Assembly: GCA_030068145.1 (NCBI GenBank)
Contig: JAPJBO010000941.1
Location: 23,139 to 87,138, forward strand
Reading direction: 5' to 3'
DNA: 64,000 nt
From: Diplonema papillatum
Lineage: Eukaryota > Euglenozoa > Diplonemea > Diplonemida > Diplonemidae
The notes beneath the pieces were generated by a model. The model saw only the letters and a program-made list of their open reading frames with translations, made no database searches and had not been told where the DNA came from. Shown here piece after piece: positions 4,395 through 64,000 of the stretch. Position 1 is the first letter of the stretch. Each line of letters begins with the position of its first letter. Both the position numbers and the translations under genes were made by a program.

Positions 4395-4895
4395 TCGTGT
4401 CACCCGCGTCCTGCCCGTCACACGTGACGTCACGCCCGTCACGCGTGACGGGCGTGACGTCACGCGTGACGTCACACCTGTCACGCGTGACGTCACGGTC
4501 TGTCACGCGTGACGTCACGGTCCGTCACGCGTGACGACACACCCGTCACGCGTGACGTCACACCCGTCATGCGGTCCGTCACGCGTGACGTCACACCCGT
4601 CACGCGTGACGTCACAGTCCGTCACGCGTGACGTCACACCCGTCACGCGTGACGTCACGGTCCGTCACGCGTGACGTCACGCCCGTCACGCGTGACGTCA
4701 CGGTCCGTCACGCGTGACGTCACACCCGTCACGCGTGACGTCACGGTCCGTCATGCGACGTCACGGTCCGTCACGCGTGACATCACACCCGTCACGCGTG
4801 ACGTCACGGTCCGTCACGCGTGACGTCACGGTCCGTCACGCGTGACGTCACACCCGTCACGCGTGACGTCACGGTCCGTCACACGTGACGGCCAA
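4395..4895. repeat. Palindromic 22-bp satellite with CACGCGTG and TGACGTCA
   Basis: About 20 copies of a 22-bp unit in which GTCACGCGTGACGTCAC is followed by GGTCC or ACCC. Each unit joins two palindromes, CACGCGTG and GTGACGTCAC; a few are decayed (for example TCATGCG near 4568 and 4750). TGACGTCA is the consensus cAMP-response/bZIP site, present about once per unit. The array is self-complementary in both orientations. Whether anything binds it is unknown. Confidence 0.92.
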
Positions 4896-5388
4896 AAACC
4901 GGGCCCAAAAAAAAATTGAAACAATTGATACATTTTGACACACGTTCCGCATGTACATTGAATATGAGCCGAAAAACTGCGGAAACCATACCTACATGCA
5001 GGCCAGTGTGAAACGTACAGGCGTGCAGATTCATCTGGGGAATCAACGACCCGAAGATTGCCACTCCGGTGTCGCTTTTCAACGAACCGTGATCCAGGAG
5101 GGCGGTGAAGGGGTGAAAACCGCAAGTTTTAAGCCCGCCCACCCATCCCCCTGTGACCTTGTTCTCCACAAGGCTTTCTTGTTTCTTCCACAACGTTTGT
5201 CTAAGATCCTGAGCTTGTTTCTCATTTGCCTTCTTCTTATTTCTACGTGGCTGAAAGCGCAGGGAAGACGATTCCCCAAATGTCGAAAAAAACCAGTCCA
5301 TCCTTCTTCCTCTCAGGTTGCAACGATGAAGGGTGAACCCACATAGGGACGGAATGCCGTATGGGTGCTTCTCGTGCACAGGGACGGA
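4896..5388. other. No gene seen; leader of the next gene
   Basis: No convincing coding sequence. A polypyrimidine-AG string (TCCTTCTTCCTCTCAG, about 5302-5317) resembles a splice acceptor. A 34-bp direct duplication (GGGACGGAATGC, about 5346 and 5380) spans the likely start of the next ORF. Confidence 0.5.
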
Positions 5389-7038
5389 ATGCTGTATGGG
5401 TGCTTCTCGTGCCGCCTGCTGGCCGGTGCTATCGAGCTGCACGCTCTCCCGCGAAGCGTGCGGCCACACTTCCAGGCCGTGGTCGATGCTTTTTTGGCTG
5501 ATTGTCCGCACTTGTCCGACCGGCCGCCCATGTTTTGCATCGCTTGTGTGGAGACAATAGCGCTGAGGTCGGATGCATGCTCTGCATGCAACACCTCCCG
5601 CGTCCCGAAGCGCCCTCTTCGGGCGGCCCTGAAGAAGGATGCGGAGGGGGTGAAGGAGGTCAGCAACGCGATCTTCGCGAAGAACGACTTCATCGCGTTG
5701 CTTGCGCTGCGGTCGACAGCCCCAGTTGTCTGCAATCCGTGCTATCAAAAAGTACGGCATCTCCTCCTCACCCCAGTGTCCCCGGATACCAACACAACAC
5801 CGCCGACTCTTCTCCCGTCCCCGGATACCAATGCAACACCGCCGACTGTGGCAGCAAGGTATCGCCCTCGCGGCCTCGTGCTCGACGCTGAGCAGCGCCC
5901 GGCGGAGCCCCCCACTGTTTCGCGGAAGAGGCGGGCACCTTGCCCTTCTCCACATCCTCCGAAGAAGAGACGTGCCTACCCGGCCGAGGCCTTGGCCGCC
6001 CTGTGGCACGAGAATCACGGACGCAACCGGGCCGTGCTCATCTCTTTCGTGCGCAAGTCGTGTGGATCCCGCCCCCTTCCGGCCGCGGTCGCTGACCTCT
6101 TTCCTCCTTCCAAACGAGAGCGGAAGACCGTCATGCAAGAGGTGAGAAGGCACGTGAACGAGTTTGGGAAGAGTCGGAAGTGTTTTCTTCGCACCTTGGT
6201 GTCTGACGGCGTGGAGCGCGTGTCGGTGATGCGCGTGATATCCTCGTTCTGGGAGGTAAATGCCGTTCCGATTGTGGGCGGAGTCAGGCTTCGGCTGCAT
6301 GACGCGGAAACAGGCGAGAAAGCCCCGACAGACGAGAAGGATCCCCAGAAGGGTTGGGTCCTCAAGCACTTCTGCCCCGTTCCATTTGGCACCCTGTACA
6401 GGGACTTCGTCAACTGGTGGGAAGCGGAGGCAGCTGCCAAGGGCTGGTGTAACCTGAGAATCGCCAGCAGGACCACCTTCTTGCGGCTTCGTCCCCACTG
6501 GGTCTGCCAGACACCGAAGGATCCCCGGATTCGGTGCCCCAGGCACCACGAAGCCCAACTCTGTCTCGACGGGTTCGCGCGCTGGGACAAGTTCTCAGAG
6601 CACACCGCCGTCTGTGACTCATGCGCAAACGCGGCCAGGGACGTGCACCAACTGGATGACGGGGCATTACTTCCCCTCCTCTGTCTCGACAATGTGCCAG
6701 ATGTGAGTCGGGTGCTGGCGTTCGGAGACGACGACAATGAAGGAGAAGACAAGCAAGAAGAAGAGCAAGAAGAAACCATCACCCCCCGCTCCCTCTCACC
6801 ACCGACCTCTCCAGAAGAACACGACAATGATACAACCCCAGTGCTCATCGGGAAGGGAAACGGGGCTTTTGCACCTGCCGATGAGGAAACAGTGACATAC
6901 AAAGTCCTCGTTGCCCAAAAAAAAAAGGTAAAGAACAAAACAACTGGGAAGCCACAGGACGTAACTGTGTGGGAAGTTGAGGAGAGGTGCGCCTCTCTGA
7001 TTGAGTACCGGATGATCTTGAAAGATCAGGGAGCCTAA
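5389..7038 (+). CDS. Putative transposon-associated zinc-binding protein
   Basis: Open reading frame of 549 aa from ATG 5389 (a GTG-initiated frame opens at 5365). Near the N-terminus is a cysteine cluster (FCIAC, CSAC, CNPC), then a Pro-rich linker with a basic run (PPKKRR). The central region contains FLRLRPHWV followed by RCPRHHE. That layout resembles the LRP/C-x-HHE module of uncharacterised proteins linked to transposons in animals and protists (from memory of the family, not a search). The C-terminus has an acidic segment and a Lys-rich stretch. The stop codon falls inside a sequence identical to the 3' end of the LINE downstream, read in a different frame. Either a LINE 3' end landed in this gene, or the gene belongs to a non-autonomous element using the LINE tail. 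The long minus-strand frame opposite (4879-6558) is a shadow. Confidence 0.5.
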   Translation: MLYGCFSCRLLAGAIELHALPRSVRPHFQAVVDAFLADCPHLSDRPPMFCIACVETIALRSDACSACNTSRVPKRPLRAALKKDAEGVKEVSNAIFAKNDFIALLALRSTAPVVCNPCYQKVRHLLLTPVSPDTNTTPPTLLPSPDTNATPPTVAARYRPRGLVLDAEQRPAEPPTVSRKRRAPCPSPHPPKKRRAYPAEALAALWHENHGRNRAVLISFVRKSCGSRPLPAAVADLFPPSKRERKTVMQEVRRHVNEFGKSRKCFLRTLVSDGVERVSVMRVISSFWEVNAVPIVGGVRLRLHDAETGEKAPTDEKDPQKGWVLKHFCPVPFGTLYRDFVNWWEAEAAAKGWCNLRIASRTTFLRLRPHWVCQTPKDPRIRCPRHHEAQLCLDGFARWDKFSEHTAVCDSCANAARDVHQLDDGALLPLLCLDNVPDVSRVLAFGDDDNEGEDKQEEEQEETITPRSLSPPTSPEEHDNDTTPVLIGKGNGAFAPADEETVTYKVLVAQKKKVKNKTTGKPQDVTVWEVEERCASLIEYRMILKDQGA

Positions 7039-7194
7039 ACCAAACGAGGCTGCAGTTTAGATCAGAGCGTGGCCACCACGAGCAGCCGGCAGGACCATCA
7101 GCTGTGACGTGAGGATGTTGACAACGTGGGCTATACTCCGCTTCAGGGGTTACCCGAAATTGAATTCCAACACACACACACACACACACACACA
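7027..7194 (+). repeat. Upstream copy of the LINE 3' end plus (CA)n
   Basis: 7027-7170 appears identical to 14780-14922, the last ORF2 codons and 3' UTR of the LINE, and is likewise followed by a (CA)n tract (7170-7194). The complete LINE begins immediately after. Identity over ~145 bp points to recent, related insertion events. Confidence 0.9.
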
Positions 7195-7236
7195 GGGGCT
7201 GGAAGAAGATCAAATTATTAAATTATACAAAACATC

Positions 7237-9048
7237 ATGCCTGCACCTCCACGTGGTGGCCCCGGGCAACGCGGCGACTCTGCTGGGCCGCCGCGGCCGA
7301 CGCAGGCCAACGACGCGAAAGCACCTGGCACTGGCTGGGTGCTGGCGGGAAAACGGCGAGGCCAGCTGGCACAGCTCAGGCCAGAGGACTGGCCCGTAGC
7401 GGTCGTAACGGCCAACGACATCAGGAAGCCGGAGACGACACAGGGCGTAGCCCTGGTCACATGGGCGGACGCCACTGAGTTGGCGAAGAAGAGCCGGAAG
7501 GGACGACTGGCCGTGGTCGTCCTCGGGGCCAAAAGGCGGGAAGGCGAGGGGGTGGAGACGACGGTGGTGACGCGCAGAGGTCCGCGAACTGAAGTCCGCC
7601 CGGCCGTCCTGCTGCAGCTTGGCGACGAGCTGGTTGGGACGCTGCTCCGAAGGACAAGCGCACCCCTGCCGCCCGCGGACGAACACAGGGTGTCCGTGGT
7701 AGTCGCGCGCCGGTACGCGACGGTGGAAGGGTGGACGGGCTGTGGGGCGGACGCCAGGGCCTGGCTTACGGGCCATTTCGTGGGAGAGGGCGTACCCCGG
7801 GAGGACATCAAGTCGCTTACGGGGATCGAGACGCGCGGCACCCCCGGCCCCACGGCCCAGATCCGCGCACTACTGCGAGTCGCTGGACGCAGCAAGGAGG
7901 GCGCCTTGGCGGCTTCGGGGAAAGGGGGCGTCTTCACAACGCTGAAAGGGGACGGAAGAGGCGCGCTATGGCTGAGGGACGACCTTACCCTGGACGAAGC
8001 GAGGAAAGCCGCTGCGCGCGCGAAGACGAGCCTCATCGTCAGTGTGCGCGGCATGGGCGTACTAAAAGGGGAGGGGGAACAGGCCGAGGCGGCTATGAGA
8101 GCGTTGCTGGGGACGGCGGCTGCGCAGGAGGAGGAGCAGCCGGGACAGCCGGGCCAGATCTGGGACGTAGCCGGGTTTCCGCGGACGATCTCGCCGGTGC
8201 AGGTGGCAGCGTTTCTCCACGCGGCCGGATGGACGGGCGTCGAGGTGATCCGCGTGATCCCGAAGCGCAGCAAGCGCCTCGCCGTCGTCCGCGGCCCGGA
8301 GCCACCGGCCTGGATTTTCCAGGTCGAGACGACTGGGGAACTGGTCACCGTGTCGACGGTCAGGGAGAAGGACGAGGCGCAACCGAGATGGGTGCAGACA
8401 AAGGGGACGGAAGAGACCCGGACAGACCCGGCCGAAGACGGAACAGAGCGTCAGGGAATGACCTACGCCAAGGCCGCTTTCATCGGCCTGTACGGAAGGA
8501 AGCAGGGCTTGAAGGCCTGGAGTGACGGCAGACCGCAGACGACCCAAGCGGCGCCAGCAGAAACAGGACAGCAGAGCGGGCCCCCGGGGAACCCCGGCGC
8601 CGACATCCCGCAAACCTCGGACGCACCACCGCCGAACGCCGGAAAGGGGGGCAAGAAAGGAAAGAAAGGGGGGAAAGCAGGAAAGCACCAGCCGCAGCCA
8701 GCCGAACAGGACGCGCAGCGACCCGACGAGGTGAGGGCAAAGCTCGAGAGGGAGGTGTCCGAGCTGCGCGCCCAGAACGCTGACATGTGTCGGAAGATGG
8801 AGGAGCTGGGGACGCTGGTGCAGGCCTTGCGTGCGCAGCTCCAGGCACGGACAGGCGACCCCCAGAAGACGACGTCACCCTCGCCGAAGCGGCAGTCGCT
8901 GGCGGAGCCGGACAAGGTCAAGAAGCGGCCGAGGTCGCTGACCAAGTCCAAGTCGCGGTCACCGGAGCCCCCGAAGCAGCCACCGTCAAAGGCGACGAGG
9001 ACCCTGAAGCAGATGGGCTTCGGGAGCACGGCGCCGGCCCGTAAATGA
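7237..9048 (+). CDS. LINE ORF1, gag-like nucleic-acid-binding protein
   Basis: 603 aa from ATG 7237, the first ATG after the (CA)n tract. The N-terminus is Gly/Pro-rich. Two central segments (about residues 50-290 and 300-380) look like compact alpha/beta domains; the second begins GFPRTISPVQVAAFL, reminiscent of RRM-like modules in ORF1 proteins (inference). The C-terminal third is very basic (KKGKKGGKAGKH near 470), then a predicted coiled coil (KLEREVSELRAQNADM), then an SR/KS-rich tail. This is typical of ORF1 proteins that coat retrotransposon RNA. The reading frame ends at TGA 9046-9048, after which the same frame stays open through ORF2. Confidence 0.85.
   Translation: MPAPPRGGPGQRGDSAGPPRPTQANDAKAPGTGWVLAGKRRGQLAQLRPEDWPVAVVTANDIRKPETTQGVALVTWADATELAKKSRKGRLAVVVLGAKRREGEGVETTVVTRRGPRTEVRPAVLLQLGDELVGTLLRRTSAPLPPADEHRVSVVVARRYATVEGWTGCGADARAWLTGHFVGEGVPREDIKSLTGIETRGTPGPTAQIRALLRVAGRSKEGALAASGKGGVFTTLKGDGRGALWLRDDLTLDEARKAAARAKTSLIVSVRGMGVLKGEGEQAEAAMRALLGTAAAQEEEQPGQPGQIWDVAGFPRTISPVQVAAFLHAAGWTGVEVIRVIPKRSKRLAVVRGPEPPAWIFQVETTGELVTVSTVREKDEAQPRWVQTKGTEETRTDPAEDGTERQGMTYAKAAFIGLYGRKQGLKAWSDGRPQTTQAAPAETGQQSGPPGNPGADIPQTSDAPPPNAGKGGKKGKKGGKAGKHQPQPAEQDAQRPDEVRAKLEREVSELRAQNADMCRKMEELGTLVQALRAQLQARTGDPQKTTSPSPKRQSLAEPDKVKKRPRSLTKSKSRSPEPPKQPPSKATRTLKQMGFGSTAPARK
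9046..9048 (+). other. Lone in-frame UGA between LINE ORF1 and ORF2
   Basis: ORF1 and ORF2 are in the same frame and this TGA is the only stop between 7237 and 14863. Frame-1 codons 9049-9183 are open and read ...VTILADERWVRAATREML before the first ORF2 ATG, which looks like genuine protein. An ATGA overlap at 9045-9048 exists, but that ATG opens a different 82-aa frame. Confidence 0.75.
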
Positions 9049-9183
9049 AGGCAGAGCCCCCTTGGCGGGGCGGGGGAGGAACACGGACATGCCGGCTACG
9101 ACACGACGGGAAGGAAGCTCGTTGGGGGGGGACCTGTAACTATCCTCGCCGACGAGCGGTGGGTACGAGCTGCGACCCGCGAG

Positions 9184-12100
9184 ATGCTTGGCCGCGCATG
9201 CCCGGTGCCGGGAGACGGGAACTGCCAGTTCTCAGCCATCGCACAACGGCACGGGACAGTGGATGCAGAGCGACTGCGACAAATGGTAGTTGATGAGATG
9301 GAGGCGCGCCCGGCTGACTACCGTCCGTACATGGTGATGGAACCGGGGCCGGACAGTCGAGGGCTCACGGTGGCGGAAGAGTTGGCCAAGTGGCAGGCTT
9401 ACCTGGCGGCCATGCGGAGGAACGCCACGTACGGCGATGAGCTGACACTACGGGCAGCGTCGCGAGTGCTGCGCTGCGACATCTGGGTGCTGAACGCGAC
9501 GAGCCGGGAGGCCCTACGTGGATGCAGACAACCGTCGCCGACCGCGACCATTGTTCTTACGTACCGGCCGGAGCACTACGACACCGTGATTCTACCGCTG
9601 CCGAGCCAGCGCCTGCTGGAGGCGACGACAGGCGACACGGTACCCTTGGCGCGGCTCGCTCTGATTAATGCTGGCCCGGTTGCTGGCACAGACGCACCGA
9701 CCCACCACCTACCAACCGGCGTGCCCGCCGCTGCGCGGACCCGGCAACGGAACACGCGCCCCCGCGCGCCCGAACCAAGGTTACCCAGCATCGCCGAGGC
9801 GAAGCAGGATCGATCATGGAGCCCGCACGACGACGATATAGTGATCGTCACCATAAACGTGACATCCTTGGACACGGAGAAGCTGTTGGTGGTGGCCCTG
9901 CTCAAAGCAGATATAGTCGTACTGCAAGAGACCCGGGTAACCAAGGCAGAAAAGGCGTACATGGGTTCATTTCTCGCGGCGTACGGATGGAACGTGCACT
10001 GGGGCGACGACGTAACGATGGTGGAAGGTGGAGACGGGAGAAGCCAAAGAAGACCTGGTGGAGTGGCAGTGCTAACCCGTCAGCACCTCACAGCGCAACT
10101 AGTGGCAGCGGTTGAAGACTCAGAGAAGAGAGTGGTGGCATCGACGCGCGTTGTGCATGTTGTCGTAGCCCTGGGGGACGGCAGAACAGCATTACACATA
10201 TTCTCGTTGTACGGGCAGAGCGGGAACAGCGTGCAGGTGCAGGGGGAAAGGGAGCAGTTGATAACAGAGGTGTTGGGTATAGCGGCAGGCCTGGGGCAAG
10301 TGCCGACCCTTGTAGTGGGTGACTTCAATTGTTCGACAGAGACCAGTTCAGTACTAGCCGCAGCATGCCGGTCGGGAAGATGGGCAGATGCGGCAGCCGC
10401 TTACGCGGTAGGCCAAGGCGAAGAACCACCGTGCACGTGCTGGGCGCCGAATGCGACAGGAGGGAGCAGGATAGACTTGTGCCTCGCCAATGCCTGTGCG
10501 GCACCAGCCATCAGCAAGGTCTGCACAGTGGAAAGGAAAAACAGCGAGTTCCACACGCATGCACCAATGTACGTGACGATGCGCCAGCAAGTGTTCCGAG
10601 AGCGCCACAGGCGCGCAATACTCCCGACAGCATTTCCTCGGGCATATCCGTTGCTCAACCTGAGTGAGAAGAGTCTTTTAGAAGTGTTCGCCAACGAGGC
10701 AAAAGAGGCCATGACGGGAGCTATGAGTCTGAAACAGCTATCGCAACACGCAGAAAGCTATCTGCTCATGTTGCACAGGCGCGAGCTCGCATTGCCGTCC
10801 AGGGCGTACAAGGGACGCGGGAACCAAGTGGTCAGCGACTCGCGACTAGCCACCAAATTCCAGCACTCGTCAACAAGGGGTGCCTCCACGAAGCAAACTC
10901 GAGCACGAGACGAGCTGTTGGGGCACCTGCGGACATTGGTACAAGCAGCCCGGGAGCGACTGAGATCTGACATACCGTATCCGCTTACAAGACGAGAGGA
11001 AAAAGCGAGAGAAGCCGCACGGAAGAGGGTAGGAAGAGGCCACATCCCGGAGGCAGTCGCCAACATCGTGATGTCAGGCGATCTCTCCGAGTTACAAGCG
11101 CTTCAAAGCGCCTTGACGAGCCTGGAGGGATCCCAGAGGGCAGCATTCTCCGCGCTCAGACGGCACAGAAAGGCGCAGTGGACGCATAAGATGCAGGAAG
11201 CATGGGCGCATGGAAGGGGCTTAGTGTTCAATTTCATCGCCGATAAATATGCCTCGCCGTTGACGTTCCTGCGACGGGACGACGGAACCCTGACGGCGAA
11301 CGCGGCGGAAATTGACGAGATCTTGAGGGGCGAGAAGGCGTGGGGTGGAATCTTTCAGCGATACACGACGCGGGAGGAACCGTGCTGGGGGCGGTTTCTG
11401 CGGATGTACAGCCCCGTCCTGCCAGACAGGGCCGAAATGGAGTGCGAGGCGATAACGGTGGGTGACGTGAAAGCAGCGCTTGCGAAGATGAAGAAGTCAG
11501 CCTCAGCTGGGATGCACGGGTGGAGGATCCACGAGCTGCAACAGCTGCCGAACTCGCTTCTGGAAGGGTTCGCACGAGTACTAAATGAGGTGGAGGAAAG
11601 CGGAGAATGGCCGGAAGAACTGATGCACGCTCTCGTCTCGCTGATACCGAAACCGAAGAGCACAGGAGATCCCTTGTCCCAACGACCGATCTCAGTGGCA
11701 CCGGTGCTGTACAGGATATGGGCTGCTGTCAGGGCTAAAGACGCGCAACGCTGGATGGACGAACTGGCTCCAGAGGGGCTCCACGGCTGCCGGCCTAAGC
11801 ACAGCACGGAAGACCTTTTCTGGCATCTGGCAGCCGAGATCGAAGAGGCGCACCTCATGGGGCGCCCGCTGTATGGCATCGCGTTCGACTTTAAAAAGTG
11901 CTTCGATTCGGTGCCCATCAACGTCACCCTGCAACTCGCAAAGAAGCTGGGATTCAACCGAAAGGTACTTCGGGCATTAGAAGCCGCATACCGACAAATG
12001 CAACGGCATTTCAAGGTAAACGGGACGGTCGGAGGTGGGTTTATCCCAACAAACGGGATCATGCAGGGCTGCGCAATCAGTGTGATACTGATTGGGCTGT

Positions 12101-14865
12101 TGATCAGCGTGTGGATGAGGCACGTAGCGCAAGAAGGACGTCCACGATCATACGTGGATGACATAACAGCCACGGCCAGAGAAGCAAGTCACCTGCAGAC
12201 GATAGCGAACAAGACGGTACAATTCGAAGAAATGACCGGCTTATGGATTTGCCTAGCGAAATCCCACTCGTTTGGAACGACGTTGCGCCAACCAGCGGTC
12301 GAAATCATGAGCTGGCAAGAAGACACTGATGTTTTCGTCTCGGAAGACCCCCCGCGATTCTACAAACGGACGGACAGCTTCGATTGCCTTGGGGTCATGG
12401 TGCACGCACGTGGGCATGGACGCCAGCTGTCGAGCAGGATCCGACAACGCAGAGAAGGAGCAGTACTAAATTTGCAACGAATAAAAAGAATACCAGTACC
12501 GGCAACGGCACGTGAGACGCTGGTTTCAATGACCGCGTGCGCAAAAATGTACTACGGCATATCGGTCATGCCGTTAGACAACAGGACGTCGAACACCATG
12601 CGCCAGGCCGTCATGACAGCCCTATGGACCGGTCCCAGCAGACGTGCAGTTGAAGTGGTGATGCAGGTGCTTCACCACGGGCACCGGCTGGACCCTTACA
12701 CTGCCCCGGCTTACATACGGATCCGGACATGGGTGCGACAAATGCGGAAGTGGCGGCACATCAGGACACTGGCGGGTGTGGCTTGGGCGCACAAAGAGAC
12801 GTTACCGGATGGTTCTCCGCACAGGTTGATGTGGGATGCTCTAAGCCAGGCGGAGTGGGCGTGGACAACCCCTGACACCATCGGGTATACCAATGAGATC
12901 GGAGAGCAGGTCGTTTTTAACACGGACGATGCGAACGAGAAGCAAACGACAATCATGCTGCACGACTTGCGCCAGGCGCTACGACGCCAACAATTGGCAA
13001 AGATGTGCAACAGAAGGGAAGACTTGCGAGGATGTGCGCACGGGGTGGATGGAAGCGTAACCCGACATCTCCTCGAAGCTCTCGATAATGGATTGACAGG
13101 ATACCAACAGGGGATGTTACGATCAATAATAGCTGGGGCCGTGGCAACTACAGGCAGAACGGGGAAAAACGAGACTTGCCCATATTGCAACCAGGACGAA
13201 AGGGAAACTGTGGCGCACTTGTGGTGGGAGTGTGAGGCTTGGAGGGGTATACGGCAGGAGCACGGCATGGGCACCGTGGACAGGACAACATGGCCGAATT
13301 GCCTGAGCATGTGCGGAGTCGCACCCATGCACAGACACAGCACGGACCCCGCCCTGCAGCCAGTACCACTCGACCATGGTGAAGCCTGCCAATTTGTAAG
13401 CAGGCTACAGCGATACTACCTGGCTGTACTGCGTGCAAGGCAGATAAGGGATGAGAGAGAGCAGGAGACAAGTCGCCACCATCGACTGACCCAATACCCG
13501 TGGGGGTGGAGAACAACGAGTCCAAGGCGGGTCTGCATTCCAAAGATTGAGGCCGAAACAATCACGCAGCAGTGGAAGCACGGCGGCGAATTGTGGAACG
13601 CCATGCACTGGTGGCTAAACAGACTTCGATGGGCGCACGTTGGATCGGAACACGCAGTGACTTTCTTGGAGTTGGCCATAGACTTCGAAGTCACAACGGG
13701 CGTGCGGCTGCCGATAGTGGCAAATCGGCGAATCCAACCGCCGGCAGCCTCGAAAGCCAAGGCGACGTCGGCCCGAGCCGTACTCCCCCCCAGAGAAACC
13801 ACCGAGGGCCTATGCATGTACTTCGATGGCGGCTCAAGGCAGAACGGAACTGCACTGGCGGTGGCTGGGGCCGGAGCAGTCATCTACAAGGATGGGCTGA
13901 AGCTGGCGGAGACAACAGTTCCCTTGGGTCGGACCACCAACAACGTGGCCGAGTACAACGGCCTGATAGCGGGGATACGACTGCTCGGGGAACAGCCGGG
14001 CGACGTTGAAGGGCCGGTAAAAGTCAGGGGCGACTCACAAGTTGTAATAGGACCAGTAAACGGGACGGCCATGTGCAAACCCAACTTACGACCGTATTTT
14101 CTGCAGGCGAGGGCGAGCATGGCCGACCTGACACCGCGGTTTGAGTTCAGTCTGGAACACGTACCGCGGAGTAGGAACGTCGATGCGGACGCGTTAAGTA
14201 ACGCGGCCATGGACAGGGTGCAAGCAGAGACGGGCGCGCAAGTAGGATTGATACGGGCGCAGTATGAGGAGTACAAGGGCAGTGCACTGGCGAAAGGTCA
14301 GTCTTTCCGAGCGGTCACCAGCGCGGTAGCACGAATCTGTGGCGTAGCGTGGCACTGTGGGCACGTCTCCAATGTCACCAGCGTCACAGCGCTAGGCGGA
14401 GGGGTAATGCTAGGCCTCTCGTGCCGAGCCGAGCTAGCCCCGCAGACCGAAGCAGTGTTGCAGGAAATGAGTCAGCCGCGCCCTGGCACACACACAGCTG
14501 CGACGGCACCCGCGAGCCCATTCGTCAAGGCACATGAGGCATGGGCAGCGAGCAGGCACCCGGAACACTTTTACAGTACAACATGGAAGGAGGAGGCGGA
14601 GTGGAAGGGAAGAGAGCAGGAGAGGGGCGCAAGCAGCCAGCGATCCCGACCAACAGCAAGGAAAGCGAGGAATGCGACGGCACGATGCGCGAAACATGAT
14701 GAACCCCGCTGCACCGCGTGTAAGAAGAGGCGATTGCCCCCAGATACGTGTTGCGACCAGCAGCACATGGGACATGGAGCAGGGAGCCTAAACCAAACGA
14801 GGCTGCAGTTTAGATCAGAGCGTGGCCACCACGAGCAGCCGGCAGGACCATCAGCTGTGACGTGA
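9184..14865 (+). CDS. LINE ORF2: OTU protease, APE endonuclease, reverse transcriptase, RNase H
   Basis: 1,893 aa from ATG 9184; the true N-terminus may be upstream (frame open from 9049). An OTU cysteine-protease domain comes first: PGDGNCQF at about 9-16 with the catalytic Cys, and EHYD with the matching His near 131. Next is an APE-type endonuclease: INVTSL near 224, QET, LYGQSG, GDFN near 380, SRID near 429, HTHAP near 457. The reverse transcriptase has SLIPKP near 819, FDFKKCFDS, GIMQGCAIS and YVDD near 990. A CX2CX9HX4C knuckle starts CPYC near 1332. RNase H has YFDGGS near 1548, NNVAEYNG, RGDSQV and NVDADAL. The C-terminus is Cys-rich. The protein would nick target DNA, prime reverse transcription and remove RNA; the OTU role is unknown. 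OTU domains are known in a few LINE and LTR lineages. Confidence 0.93.
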   Translation: MLGRACPVPGDGNCQFSAIAQRHGTVDAERLRQMVVDEMEARPADYRPYMVMEPGPDSRGLTVAEELAKWQAYLAAMRRNATYGDELTLRAASRVLRCDIWVLNATSREALRGCRQPSPTATIVLTYRPEHYDTVILPLPSQRLLEATTGDTVPLARLALINAGPVAGTDAPTHHLPTGVPAAARTRQRNTRPRAPEPRLPSIAEAKQDRSWSPHDDDIVIVTINVTSLDTEKLLVVALLKADIVVLQETRVTKAEKAYMGSFLAAYGWNVHWGDDVTMVEGGDGRSQRRPGGVAVLTRQHLTAQLVAAVEDSEKRVVASTRVVHVVVALGDGRTALHIFSLYGQSGNSVQVQGEREQLITEVLGIAAGLGQVPTLVVGDFNCSTETSSVLAAACRSGRWADAAAAYAVGQGEEPPCTCWAPNATGGSRIDLCLANACAAPAISKVCTVERKNSEFHTHAPMYVTMRQQVFRERHRRAILPTAFPRAYPLLNLSEKSLLEVFANEAKEAMTGAMSLKQLSQHAESYLLMLHRRELALPSRAYKGRGNQVVSDSRLATKFQHSSTRGASTKQTRARDELLGHLRTLVQAARERLRSDIPYPLTRREEKAREAARKRVGRGHIPEAVANIVMSGDLSELQALQSALTSLEGSQRAAFSALRRHRKAQWTHKMQEAWAHGRGLVFNFIADKYASPLTFLRRDDGTLTANAAEIDEILRGEKAWGGIFQRYTTREEPCWGRFLRMYSPVLPDRAEMECEAITVGDVKAALAKMKKSASAGMHGWRIHELQQLPNSLLEGFARVLNEVEESGEWPEELMHALVSLIPKPKSTGDPLSQRPISVAPVLYRIWAAVRAKDAQRWMDELAPEGLHGCRPKHSTEDLFWHLAAEIEEAHLMGRPLYGIAFDFKKCFDSVPINVTLQLAKKLGFNRKVLRALEAAYRQMQRHFKVNGTVGGGFIPTNGIMQGCAISVILIGLLISVWMRHVAQEGRPRSYVDDITATAREASHLQTIANKTVQFEEMTGLWICLAKSHSFGTTLRQPAVEIMSWQEDTDVFVSEDPPRFYKRTDSFDCLGVMVHARGHGRQLSSRIRQRREGAVLNLQRIKRIPVPATARETLVSMTACAKMYYGISVMPLDNRTSNTMRQAVMTALWTGPSRRAVEVVMQVLHHGHRLDPYTAPAYIRIRTWVRQMRKWRHIRTLAGVAWAHKETLPDGSPHRLMWDALSQAEWAWTTPDTIGYTNEIGEQVVFNTDDANEKQTTIMLHDLRQALRRQQLAKMCNRREDLRGCAHGVDGSVTRHLLEALDNGLTGYQQGMLRSIIAGAVATTGRTGKNETCPYCNQDERETVAHLWWECEAWRGIRQEHGMGTVDRTTWPNCLSMCGVAPMHRHSTDPALQPVPLDHGEACQFVSRLQRYYLAVLRARQIRDEREQETSRHHRLTQYPWGWRTTSPRRVCIPKIEAETITQQWKHGGELWNAMHWWLNRLRWAHVGSEHAVTFLELAIDFEVTTGVRLPIVANRRIQPPAASKAKATSARAVLPPRETTEGLCMYFDGGSRQNGTALAVAGAGAVIYKDGLKLAETTVPLGRTTNNVAEYNGLIAGIRLLGEQPGDVEGPVKVRGDSQVVIGPVNGTAMCKPNLRPYFLQARASMADLTPRFEFSLEHVPRSRNVDADALSNAAMDRVQAETGAQVGLIRAQYEEYKGSALAKGQSFRAVTSAVARICGVAWHCGHVSNVTSVTALGGGVMLGLSCRAELAPQTEAVLQEMSQPRPGTHTAATAPASPFVKAHEAWAASRHPEHFYSTTWKEEAEWKGREQERGASSQRSRPTARKARNATARCAKHDEPRCTACKKRRLPPDTCCDQQHMGHGAGSLNQTRLQFRSERGHHEQPAGPSAVT

Positions 14866-14936
14866 GGATGTTGACAACGTGGGCTATACTCCGCTTCAGG
14901 GGTTACCCGAAATTGAATTCCAACACACACACACAC
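14780..14936 (+). repeat. LINE 3' end and (CA)n tail (direct repeat of 7027-7194)
   Basis: Contains the last ~28 codons and stop of ORF2 (14863-14865), a ~57-bp 3' UTR ending TTGAATTCCAA and the CA tract. It appears base-for-base identical to 7027-7170. The shared segment may include the RNA structure recognised by the reverse transcriptase, since LINE 3' ends usually do (family knowledge). Confidence 0.9.
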
Positions 14937-59212: not shown

Positions 59213-61806
59213 ATGGCGGGGTACAATGACGGGCGGCCGGTGGATAAAGGGTTCAAGTGGAATGAGCTGTCGAGCAACGTGCCGACCCAGCGCCGCGCGA
59301 GCGAGAAGGATGGCAGGAGGGACGGTAACGAGCTGCAGCAGGCAGAGCAGCAGAGCAGCATCAGGGGAAGGCGACTGGTGAGACCGCAACTGAATTTGAG
59401 CGGCGGTGACAGTGTCGGTTTCAGCCAAGATACGGCGGCGACGAACCGGTCGTCGGCGGCAGTCCAACACCGCTCGTCTTCATTGAACAAGCAGAAGGGC
59501 AAGCGGACTCCGTCTCCAACCGCCAGCCAACACCCGCAGTCCCAGCAGCAACCACCCGTATCCACTATCGCAAGCCGTCCCGGCAACCCTATGCAGCAGC
59601 ACTACGACAGCAACCAGTTGCCTCCTCCTCGCCCACCCGCACCCCAGCAGCCCTCCCAGCGATCCGTTTCTCAACGCGCAGCAGACCCCGAGTCTCGGGC
59701 GTCGACGGATGCCGGCGCGAAGGAGACCGGCGAGTCAATCCCTCTAAAACGGGGCCAGCCGCTGACCTGCATCGGCAGGGACATCCGACTCACCAAGCGA
59801 CTCTTGCAACACGCCACGCGGCTCGCCCTAGCGGACAATGACCAGCAGGTCGAAGTCGAGCGCTGGAATCTTCGACAGGTGGGTCCTCTTTTTGTACTTG
59901 CAATACACGCTAATAAGCCTTGCAATACACGCTAATAAGCCTTGCAATACACGCTAATAAGCCTTGCAATACACGCTAATAAGCCTTGCAATACACGCTA
60001 ATAAGCCTTGCAATACACGCTAATAAGCCTTGCAATACACGCTAATAAGCCTTGCAATACACGCTAATAAGCCTTGCAATACACGCTAATAAGCCTTGCA
60101 ATACACGCTAATAAGCCTTGCAATACACGCTAATAAGCCTTGCAATACACGCTAATAAGCCTTGCAATACACGCTAAAAAGCCTTGCAATACACGCTAAA
60201 AAGCCTTGCAATACACGCTAATAAGCCTTGCAATACACGCTAATAAGCCTTGCAATACACGCTAAGAAGCCTTGCAATCTGGCAGGCTGCCCCGCAATGC
60301 TTTGCGAAGGCTGAAAACGCACCGGAAGCGTTTTTTGTTTGGGTTACCAGTGCAGTACTGGTACAAAACAGTAGTAGTCAGCAGTGCATAGCATAGGCGA
60401 GTCTCGGTGAGAGCAGGCGAGTTCCTGGTGCGCACGAACAAGAGAAATCACCACGCTAACCTCATTTTCTGGTCGTCGGTCCACGTAATAATGTAAGATG
60501 ACGGTCATAAACGGGGTAGTACTGAAGTATACGCGACGGAACAGGCACACGTTCTCTTAGTTTCATAGGGGTACGGAATTGTTCCTGGCTTCTTCTGGCA
60601 TCTCCACACCCGTTCTGAGCCGCGGTCTACAGCAGAGGCAGGCGCTACTCTCTCCACTCTTTCTCGGCCGGGGCTCTTACCTACCCTGCTCAAATGGCTA
60701 GCCTACTTCGTTTTCCTTGCCTTGCATAGTGCACTGGCAACCCAGGCACATTATCCCTTTAAGTTCATAGGGATGCCGTGGGTCTAGTTTTTCTAGTCGT
60801 ATACAATCGCAGAGTCTTTAGAAGATTAATATGTCGGACGAATACCCAACACTTGTACAGCGTTACTAACCCCGTCGCTATCCCGAAACCATCGTAACTT
60901 CATCCCTCGCTTGTCGGGTCCAGCGACCCTGGTAGCTGGATCCAGCGTTGGTCGCTGGGTCCATACCCGCCTCCAAGGGGTCCAACAACCTTCCAGGTTT
61001 TAGCTCTCAGAAAACTTTGTGTTGTACCTCCGTTATACCCTGCGTGCTTCTTTGCACAGAGCACAAAATCACAACAACACCCACACCTCTTTGGGTGATA
61101 CAATCAACCATTCTACCGGTGATAGGTTTCGCCACCGTTCGTCTGCACGTTTCGCAGTCCGCAACATGATAGCGACAACCCCCCCCCCCCCCATCTTCCC
61201 ACCTATTCTCTCCGCGTTTCTGTCGCGGGGTCTTTCTCGCAATCGAATACATACCCACAGGTCGAACAAGCGATGCGGGAGAAAAAGAGCTCAGCGGTCG
61301 ATTTGCAAGGCGACCCGGAGGAGTACATCCACCGGGAAAGGGGCTGGTGGGACCGCGAGCTGGCTGGGTGGAAGGACAAGCGGGAGAAGATGCGGCAGGA
61401 GTTCGAGCGGAAGGCGCTCGAGCAGATCCTCGCCGGCCAGAGCCCGGAGCAGCTGCGCGAGCTGCAGGACCCGGAGGCAGCGAAGCAGTGGCTGCAGCTG
61501 ATGGAAGCGTCTCTCCACCCCTTCATCTCGGAGCTCAACCGGAACATAGCAGCCGACGGGCCACCCTCGGTGCCGCTGTCCCCGCCCGGCCTGCAGCAGG
61601 TGCCGAACGAAAGCTCGTGGCATCCGCGGGAGTCCAGGAGCGGGCTGTGGTCCACGGTGCCGAAGACGACCGAGGAGTACGTCGAGGCCCGGCGGCAGAA
61701 CCTGCTCCGCGCGGACTGGTGCAACAGCTTCGCGCGCGGCGAAACGGGCGCCCACGGCGACCCGGAGGATCGCTACTGGAAGCCCTCGCAGCTGCCACCG
61801 GGAAGG
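59213..61806 (+). CDS. Unrecognised Gln/Pro-rich protein, two exons visible
   Basis: Exon 1 is 59213-59878 (ATG 59213) and exon 2 is 61261-61806, both junctions phase 0. Donors are GTGGGT at 59879 and GTATGC at 61807; the acceptor is ATACCCACAG. At least 404 aa are visible, and a further 3' exon is implied by the final donor. Exon 1 is disordered (Arg/Gln/Ser, then PPPRPPAPQQPSQ) until a well-formed segment, LTCIGRDIRLTKRLLQHATRLALADNDQQVEVERWNLRQ. That segment continues across the intron (VEQAMREKKSSAVD) into charged helices (WWDRELAGWKDKREKMRQEFERKALEQILAG; AAKQWLQLMEASLHPFISELNRN). No known domain is recognised. The continuity of helical sequence and phase supports the splice. Confidence 0.7.
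59897..60282 (+). repeat. 22-bp intronic minisatellite, ~17 copies
   Basis: TTGCAATACACGCTAATAAGCC in tandem, nearly invariant (TAAAAAG and TAAGAAG variants near 60175, 60195 and 60265). It begins about 18 bp after the 5' splice site at 59879. Confidence 0.96.
60283..61260. other. Rest of the intron; no gene seen
   Basis: Lies between the minisatellite and the acceptor at 61260. It holds a small GGTCCAGCGACC/GGTCGCTGGGTCC inverted repeat near 60920-60960 and a C10-type run near 61183. Confidence 0.5.
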
Positions 61807-62160: not shown

Positions 62161-62588
62161 CTGACACCATTTGCGCACCTAACCGTGGTTCGGAATACGT
62201 ATAAAAACCTAGACCCAAATCTAGCTCAAAGCATCTCTCTCATCAACGCAGCATAACACGAATTCCTCAAGGCAAACCCCGTTTTCAGACTTCTTCGGGG
62301 CTCGCCTTCGCATCAAGGGCGCAGTGCCCGTCCCAAGATTAAGCCCCCCCTCCCACATTCTTTTTGCTTTGGTGTTTGTCGAGGATTACAACGAGGGGGT
62401 GTGCGCAAGAAAAGGCGAAGCGGCAAACGCGGCCTTTCGCTTGCGTGTGGCCACGGTGCAAAGGTGCTATCCCCACGCAGAAGGGCTGTTTATGACGAAT
62501 TCGACAATTCAAAAGTCTGTTGGGTAGTTTCTTTGCGCTGTTGCGGTGGTCCGAATCCCCGTGTAGCTAGACACACTCTGGAGCTGAA
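62161..62588. other. Sequence before the terminal satellite; no supported gene
   Basis: A 67-aa frame at 62324-62527 is the longest; no motif recognised. Confidence 0.45.
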
Positions 62589-64000
62589 TGTCGGATGGTG
62601 AAGTTGACACCCCACAACCTACCCCTTCGAGTGTCGGATGGTGAAGTTGACACCCCACAACCTACCCCTTCGCATGTCGGATGGTGAAGTTGACACCCCA
62701 CAACCTACCCCTTCGAATGTCGGATGGTGAAGTTGACACCCCACAACCTACCCCTTCGAGTGTCGGATGGTGAAGTTGACACCCCACAACCTACCCCTTC
62801 GATGTCGGATGGTGAAGTTGACACCCCACAACCTACCCCTTCGAGTGTCGGATGGTGAAGTTGACACCCCACAACCTACCCCTTCGAATGTCGGATGGTG
62901 AAGTTGACACCCCACAACCTACCCCTTCGAATGTCGGATGGTGAAGTTGACACCCCACAACCTACCCCTTCGAATGTCGGATGGTGAAGTTGACACCCCA
63001 CAACCTACCCCTTCGAGTGTCGGATGGTGAAGTTGACACCCCACAACCTACCCCTTCGAGTGTCGGATGGTGAAGTTGACACCCCACAACCTACCCCTTC
63101 GAATGTCGGATGGTGAAGTTGACACCCCACAACCTACCCCTTCGAATGTCGGATGGTGAAGTTGACACCCCACAACCTACCCCTTCGCATGTCGGATGGT
63201 GAAGTTGACACCCCACAACCTACCCCTTCGAATGTCGGATGGTGAAGTTGACACCCCACAACCTACCCCTTCGAATGTCGGATGGTGAAGTTGACACCCC
63301 ACAACCTACCCCTTCGAATGTCGGATGGTGAAGTTGACACCCCACAACCTACCCCTTCGAATGTCGGATGGTGAAGTTGACACCCCACAACCTACCCCTT
63401 CGCATGTCGGATGGTGAAGTTGACACCCCACAACCTACCCCTTCGAATGTCGGATGGTGAAGTTGACACCCCACAACCTACCCCTTCGAGTGTCGGATGG
63501 TGAAGTTGACACCCCACAACCTACCCCTTCGCATGTCGGATGGTGAAGTTGACACCCCACAACCTACCCCTTCGAATGTCGGATGGTGAAGTTGACACCC
63601 CACAACCTACCCCTTCGAGTGTCGGATGGTGAAGTTGACACCCCACAACCTACCCCTTCGAGTGTCGGATGGTGAAGTTGACACCCCACAACCTACCCCT
63701 TCGAGTGTCGGATGGTGAAGTTGACACCCCACAACCTACCCCTTCGAATGTCGGATGGTGAAGTTGACACCCCACAACCTACCCCTTCGAATGTCGGATG
63801 GTGAAGTTGACACCCCACAACCTACCCCTTCGCATGTCGGATGGTGAAGTTGACACCCCACAACCTACCCCTTCGAATGTCGGATGGTGAAGTTGACACC
63901 CCACAACCTACCCCTTCGAGTGTCGGATGGTGAAGTTGACACCCCACAACCTACCCCTTCGAGTGTCGGATGGTGAAGTTGACACCCCACAACCTACCCC
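62589..64000 (+). repeat. 43-bp satellite array (runs off the window)
   Basis: About 33 copies of a 43-bp unit (GTCGGATGGTGAAGTTGACA, CCCCACAACCTACCCCTTCG plus 3 bases). The copies differ almost only at one junction position, CTTCG followed by AGT, AAT or CAT; one unit near 62802 is 1 bp short. A continuation beyond 64000 is certain. Confidence 0.98.

Follow-up and report, generated by a model that had tools for sequence, protein, structure and literature searches.

Organization of the LINE in the window

The window analysed here, the whole stretch of 64,000 nucleotides, carries a full-length LINE at 7195..14936. The element, its parts and the flanking features given next lie on the + strand. 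The LINE opens with GGGGCTGG and ends in (AC)n. An (AC)12 run at 7170..7193 forms the 5′ flank or target microsatellite, and an (AC)7 run at 14923..14936 forms the tail or target at the other end. Directly upstream, at 7027..7169, is the 3′ end of another, 5′-truncated copy of the same LINE family, with the sequence of 14780-14922.

ORF1 (7237..9048) encodes 603 amino acids from its ATG, and its stop is the TGA at 9046-9048. No Pfam domain in it exceeded the cut-off. The ORF2 frame runs from 9049 to 14865, stop to stop, with 1938 codons in the same frame as ORF1, and is closed by TGA at 14863..14865. In order, it contains an OTU domain (9133..9678), an APE endonuclease (9883..10494; Pfam Exo_endo_phos, 1.7e-12), a reverse transcriptase (RT; 11644..12393; Pfam RVT_1, 2e-18), a CX2CX9HX4C (CCHC) knuckle (13177..13233) and an RNase H (13813..14241, Pfam core 13864-14208; RVT_3, 8.7e-8). 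A preliminary description had placed an OTU domain directly before APE, RT and RNase H, and Pfam matches to all four in ORF2 agree with that order.

APE and RT are found in one frame that is present in many copies, which makes the element an APE-type LINE. The nearest solved structure to its RT is human LINE-1 ORF2p. The RNase H is of the archaeal type, with Arg in place of the active-site His (HVPR...DAD). Its best PDB matches are 3hst (Rv2228c), 3u3g, 4e19, 4h8k, 2ehg and 3aly, which we take to be archaeal or bacterial-type RNases H.

Among the best 24 of 6422 candidate matches to ORF2, at least 15, including that of the window, cover residues 1-1938 with 100% (rounded) identity. The element was described earlier as intact, and these near-identical full-length copies indicate that it is young. 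We rejected the idea of a decayed copy because the same stop between ORF1 and ORF2 is found in each subfamily examined and at least 15 full-length ORF2 copies are nearly identical.

Elsewhere in the window, a 563-codon frame with cysteine pairs occupies 5347-7038; its end runs into the LINE 3′ fragment, and it has no Pfam domain over cut-off. At 62459-63961, 59809-60344 and 4416-4937 there are tandem arrays of 43-bp and 22-bp units and a field of GTCACGCGTGAC palindromic repeats.

Related subfamilies in the genome

We examined the ORF1-ORF2 junctions of 15 LINE subfamilies in the 271 Mb genome, and the OTU domain comes first in ORF2 in each. In a genome OTU search, the best 150 of 656 candidates were all over cut-off, many of them in frames of 1500-2130 codons. 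Further subfamilies came from two OTU-protein searches (best 150 matches each) and one RT search. No full-length member of the RT group without an OTU was found among the members named here. The preliminary description stated that OTU domains are reported in only a few LINE lineages. This needs amending for the present genome, where the domain is not rare and is carried by each relative whose junction was examined.

The subfamilies are named by the codon length of their ORF2 frames: 1938, 1966, 1876, 1528 (L022), 2130, 2135, 1972, 1887, 1909, 1901, 1907, 1909b (L040), 1945, 1925 and 1950/1903. The grouping is our own, each subfamily rests on few copies, often one, and the 15 are related and so are not independent trials. 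L022, which is related to the 1876 subfamily and carries a deletion, was counted as a subfamily. Eight subfamilies (L035-L041 and L046/L047) were examined at the junction and OTU only. The 1945 subfamily has at least 38 copies with exactly that stop-to-stop length.

L042 and L043 were dropped because their ORF1-OTU junctions are not intact, the 5′ part being broken or recombined. In L019 the ORF1 stop is present, but a G run after it is one base shorter, which puts the OTU out of frame, and this copy was left out of the junction count. L044 is among the 15 aligned OTU sequences described below, though not among the 15 subfamilies. Of 40 pattern matches in viral contigs, none was confirmed as a relative by tblastn, and phage records gave none at E 1e-5.

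L020, L021, L025 and L026 were left out as other elements. L020 and L021 (G000 C966, C1249) belong to another LINE, in which a frame with OTU and Q-rich stretches ends in TGA CTA, the strong form of leaky context. In phase behind it, a second frame contains an AlkB-type 2OG-Fe(II) oxygenase, a 2A-like DVEQNPGP, APE and RT; in L020 the OTU lies in a different frame from the one before the stop. L025 and L026 (G000 C45, C734) are copies of a repeated frame in which GIY-YIG and OTU lie towards opposite ends. No Pfam RT match was found in the part of L025 examined.

ORF2 begins with an OTU domain

The first domain of ORF2 is a genuine OTU domain. Pfam OTU (PF02338) matched ORF2 residues 54-157 (9208-9519) with E=9.8e-10 and 39.5 bits against a cut-off of 23.3. 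An AF2 model of residues 24-210, built on an alignment of eight sequences from the window and the genome, reached pLDDT 83 and pTM 0.81. Its best PDB matches were OTUD3 (E 1.3e-7), DUBA/OTUD5, Otu1 and yeast Otu2 (TM 0.77 by target length). A profile match to OTUD5 at 8.9e-12 aligned the Asp, Cys and His. A chance match was rejected on these four results together. The preliminary description had read PGDGNCQF and a downstream EHYD as the Cys and His of an OTU fold and had proposed a profile search and a structure prediction. Both returned an OTU domain, with a papain-like fold, and agree with the conserved Cys-His-Asp set (DGNC 9214-9225; HYD 9574-9582).

DG.C and HYD are invariant in all 15 aligned OTUs, which include L044, a divergent 347-codon remnant, and leave out L046/L047. 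When pairs were taken as measurable only at dS < 3 and dN < 0.5, 18 of the 105 pairs qualified, and dN/dS was 0.10-0.29 in all of them. In the reading preferred below, the OTU domain would be a working cysteine peptidase.

The first in-frame ATG of ORF2 is codon 46 (9184..9186), 24 nt before the Pfam match. It corresponds to residue 23 of the model and follows the first helix (6-22), so that a start there would lose this helix. The earlier statement that the OTU begins upstream of the first ORF2 ATG, and is thereby tied to the question of the stop codon, was right in substance.

A single in-frame stop separates ORF1 and ORF2

In representatives of all 15 subfamilies, ORF1 ends in a single stop and ORF2 follows in the same frame. 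The stop is UGA in 12 subfamilies, UAG in three and UAA in none. TGA was present in 16 of 16 rechecked copies, and the seventeenth, L019, also has TGA. The distance from the stop to a downstream glycine motif, [LM]xGGG, is 4, 7, 10, 18, 23, 36 or 91 codons across subfamilies; since the spacer varies in length while the frame holds, insertions and deletions have kept the frame. Coding constraint in this spacer was not found when six pairs were summed (Nd 25.6/123 sites, Sd 6.4/42); a UAG pair in the same analysis gave 0.54.

No frame of ORF1-ORF2 fusion length was seen among the frames listed from the OTU and RT searches, the longest being 2177 aa. A few frames exceed the norm of their subfamily, and the three of these examined (L019, L042, L043) are shifted or rearranged copies. 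ORF2 itself ends in TGA, TAA or TAG, for which reason we rejected a generally altered genetic code.

The stop in the window is TGA AGG CAG (9046..9054), a putative readthrough site overlapped by an out-of-frame ATGA at 9045. Its context, UGA AGG, is not a known leaky one. UGA AGG or AGC, not typical of leaky stops, is found in six UGA subfamilies (1938, 1966, 1876, 1528, 2130, 2135), and the other six have UGA CUG or CUC. UGA C is treated as leaky, with CUA as the strong form (PMC11166343).

Three approaches were used to look for RNA structure downstream of the window's UGA, and the z-scores (-0.35 to 0.91) were not beyond those of shuffled sequences. The other UGA subfamilies gave no consistent structure: the sister L014 had z -0.9 to -2.4 and the others were scattered. 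Their downstream frame is in phase, but in-frame ATGs exist. UGA subfamilies are the weaker case for programmed readthrough. In the window, readthrough is suggested by the relatives together with the lack of a suitable start, as the ATGA is in another frame and the earliest in-frame ATG lies inside the domain.

A Tudor-like stretch was seen by eye at the end of ORF1, up to the UGA, in L027/L028 and L035; L028 gave no Pfam match.

A stem follows the UAG stop

In all three UAG subfamilies the downstream frame is in phase and has no start before or within the OTU. No in-frame ATG occurs after the UAG in the 286 (L036), 265 (L046) and 263 (L047) codons examined, and in L037 the first is at codon 236, past the OTU.

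A GC-rich stem starts exactly 7 nt after the UAG, with 13 bp in L036, 11 bp in L046/L047 and 10 bp in L037. Covariation is seen at pair 5 (U-G or C-G), pair 6 (G-U, A-U or C-G) and pair 11 (A-U in L036, G-C in L046/L047). When each sequence was shuffled 300 times, the longest stem within 100 nt after the UAG was reached by 0 (L036), 0 (L046) and 1 (L047) shuffles. For L037, the 100-nt limit cuts the 10-bp stem, and another stem of 9 bp was reached by 3 of 300. Over 150 nt the duplex z-scores were -2.7 to -3.9, and over 500 nt they were -0.8 to -2.4; the fold of the whole L036 segment had a z of only -1.07. A stem behind a leaky stop at a spacing of about 7 nt is described as a stimulator (PMC11166343). 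The stem of the UAG subfamilies is of this readthrough type and is good evidence that their stop is read through by programme; among the LINEs compared here, they make the strongest case.

A candidate cut site ahead of the OTU

The motif LVGGG at 9118..9132, which includes an eight-G run, lies just ahead of the OTU. Motifs of the form [LM]xGGG were found in 13 of 15 junctions, namely all 12 UGA subfamilies and the remnant L044, at 30-36 residues before the catalytic DGxC, and at 31-36 residues when the UGA subfamilies are taken alone. Six pairs gave only 2 nonsynonymous changes in 63 sites of the motif, while the glycine codons vary. It is unique within ORF2 in five of the six subfamilies scanned. 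In the AF2 model the tail ahead of the OTU is unordered (residues 1-7, pLDDT < 50). The UAG subfamilies are without [LM]xGGG; roughly at its position they have PTPAESGD.

The OTU protease of maize rayado fino virus, a marafivirus, cuts LVGA in cis, and marafivirus junctions resemble the LRGG of ubiquitin (PMC8348309). By this likeness to the cut sites of viral OTU proteases, LVGG|G is a candidate site for cleavage by the OTU of the LINE. The preliminary description proposed that the protease could process the polyprotein or strip ubiquitin; of these two, the first appears to agree more closely with the layout and with [LM]xGGG.

In L019 (G000 C1630), the G run of the motif is one base shorter than in L014, and its OTU is thus out of frame with its ORF1. 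The short run may be a mutation, an assembly error or a hint of slippage.

ORF1 and OTU are exchanged against APE-RT-RNase H

The window copy and L014 are 88% identical in ORF1 and 89% in the OTU, with 37% in APE and 40% in RT. Compared with L029, the window copy shows the reverse, with identities of 38% (ORF1), 49% (OTU), 92% (APE) and 92% (RT). L011 and L023 share 65% in ORF1 and 70% in the OTU, with 37% in APE and 40% in RT. Since the similarity of ORF1 and OTU is opposite to that of APE and RT, ORF1 and OTU were inherited together and exchanged against APE-RT-RNase H. The recombination breakpoints lie near the OTU-APE linker.

The 2130 subfamily (L023, L024) has two OTUs, and in L023 both keep DGNC and HYD. 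Its inner OTU groups with the OTUs of the UAG subfamilies (98/99), and the beginning of its APE has 69-71% identity with the APE of those subfamilies. The outer OTU has [LM]xGGG, and the inner OTU is without the upstream PTPAESGD of its relatives. Such a two-OTU layout is as expected if ORF1-OTU and APE-RT were exchanged by recombination.

CA-rich flanks were present in 7 of 7 copies examined of the window, 2130, 1972 and 1909 subfamilies. A run of five AC units was present in none of eight loci of the 1966/1876 group. Target choice seems to follow the APE-RT part. A literature search on AC-repeat LINEs returned nothing useful among the matches listed.

Expression of ORF2 and its alternatives

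We consider it rather probable that the order ORF1-stop-OTU-APE-RT-RNase H reflects readthrough followed by self-release of the OTU from the ORF1 protein, in the manner of a gag-stop-pro-pol element. In this model, a young LINE inserted in AC repeats would be translated to give ORF1 protein, and some ribosomes would continue past the single stop and produce a fusion of ORF1 with OTU-APE-RT-RNase H. The OTU would most likely cleave this product at LVGG|G, immediately upstream of the domain, and free the ORF1 protein from the OTU-polymerase part. Cleavage and readthrough would then set a ratio like that of gag to gag-pol, and the OTU may also remove ubiquitin. For the window, the model supposes that its UGA would behave as the UAG of its relatives is thought to. 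The wider statement, on which we stand close to evenly divided, is that a LINE lineage independently evolved a retrovirus-like expression, with a programmed leaky stop, either UGA or a UAG followed by the stem at its constant 7-nt distance, a self-cutting OTU that recognizes LxGG and was recruited from the ubiquitin system, and then the endonuclease and polymerase.

An alternative that we regard as unlikely, yet as a serious one, keeps the readthrough and makes the OTU a deubiquitinase, which would shield the element's proteins from the proteasome or alter target repair, with [LM]xGGG as a linker. The nearest folds are indeed cellular and viral deubiquitinases, the nearest sequences are OTUD5/DUBA and Otu1, and the OTU is kept in the UAG subfamilies that have no [LM]xGGG. 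A role in the ubiquitin pathway has also been proposed for OTU and Ulp1 in other transposons (PMC2836005). However, a deubiquitinase leaves unexplained why [LM]xGGG is conserved in a fast-changing spacer, and why the OTU is the leading domain behind the stop and is passed on with ORF1, not with APE-RT. The two-OTU subfamily also speaks against it, as the inner OTU there lacks PTPAESGD and the outer one has [LM]xGGG.

It is improbable, in our judgement, that ribosomes terminate at the stop and re-initiate at a start behind it, often the codon that opens [LM]xGGG, to make ORF2 with neither fusion nor processing. A coupled form of re-initiation is known for SART1 (PMC5972666). The motif opens with ATG in 7 of 13 junctions and with CTG or TTG in 4 more, and stop and ATG overlap as ATGA in 7 of 14. 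But this codon is CTC in the window and in L014, the overlapping ATGA is in the wrong frame, and in five junctions further ATGs in other frames come before the in-frame one. In the UAG subfamilies the frame has no ATG up to the end of the OTU, and a start codon does not need the invariant glycines.

For the window lineage only, ORF2 might start at the out-of-frame ATG at 9045 and slip into the OTU frame at the eight-G run. By eye, the frame of that ATG stays open from 9045 to beyond the G run, and in L019, which is one G shorter, the OTU lies in this frame. We hold this to be very improbable: L014 has GTGA, not ATGA, at the stop, the glycine codons of other subfamilies have no such unbroken run, and L019 is a single copy that may be a mutation or an assembly error.

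Decoding of UGA as selenocysteine or by a suppressor tRNA, or removal of the stop by splicing or editing, can be given hardly any credence, although the host has tRNA-Sec genes (G000 C505:23666-23751, 76 bits; C30:319405-319490, 70 bits), because three subfamilies use UAG and ORF2 itself ends in UGA in the window copy, L023 and L029. The tRNA-Sec genes indicate that the host probably makes selenoproteins; 5S rRNA was also located in the genome.

Readthrough with self-release, the reading we prefer, bears on a question that has been worked out in few cases, namely how LINEs make their second protein. Re-initiation is described for SART1 and proposed for L1 (PMC5972666). With near-identical full-length copies, at least 15 subfamilies and two types of stop, the present LINEs offer a comparative system for LINE readthrough. 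If the OTU does cut at LxGG, a peptidase of the ubiquitin system would be acting as a retroelement protease.

Comparison with known systems

OTU domains in LINEs as such may be known already. In the open-access literature, no paper on OTU in LINEs, and none on ORF1-ORF2 readthrough in LINEs, was found among the matches listed.

Dualen (RandI) shares APE, RT and RNase H with the window LINE. Dualen also carries a cysteine protease, and [RK]PD is a motif of restriction-like endonucleases. The window ORF2 has no Pfam match to a restriction-like endonuclease, and an [RK]PD pattern was not conserved between knuckle and RNase H in six subfamilies. Dualen is described as carrying both APE and a restriction-like endonuclease (PMC4640811). 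By its absent restriction-like endonuclease motif, the window LINE does not appear to be a Dualen element on the evidence here. NeSL and Utopia show that some LINEs have an N-terminal cysteine protease, but theirs is of the Ulp1 type and is accompanied by a restriction-like endonuclease (PMC4640811). Plant and oomycete L1 LINEs have an archaeal-type RNase H too; the text of that source on these L1 elements contains neither the word OTU nor the phrase stop codon (PMC5348765). In Ginger and Helitron the OTU is also part of a mobile element, but these are DNA transposons, and the OTU of Ginger1 is C-terminal (PMC2836005).

The OTU peptidases and deubiquitinases OTUD5-DUBA, OTUD3, Otu1 and Otu2 have the same fold and the same DGxC and His motifs. 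Unlike these proteins, the OTU of the LINE stands behind a stop as part of a fusion, with ORF1 on one side and APE on the other, and is preceded by an LxGG-like site. The OTU proteases of tymoviruses and marafiviruses process their own polyprotein, in marafiviruses at LVGA or LRGG-like sites (PMC8348309, PMC3968130). They belong to plant RNA viruses, whereas here the host of the domain is a LINE and the peptidase role is predicted.

Tca2 is built alike, with gag-UGA-pol, but is an LTR element; its junction alone gave no readthrough in a yeast reporter (PMC2194720). In the gammaretrovirus MuLV, gag and pol are in one frame around one stop with a structure close behind (PMC5009743, PMC11166343). 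The LINE differs from MuLV in having an OTU cysteine peptidase, and in its UAG subfamilies the structure found is a plain stem. The window element belongs to the APE-type LINEs and has an OTU peptidase domain, and it would work like a gag-stop-pro-pol element with an OTU protease.
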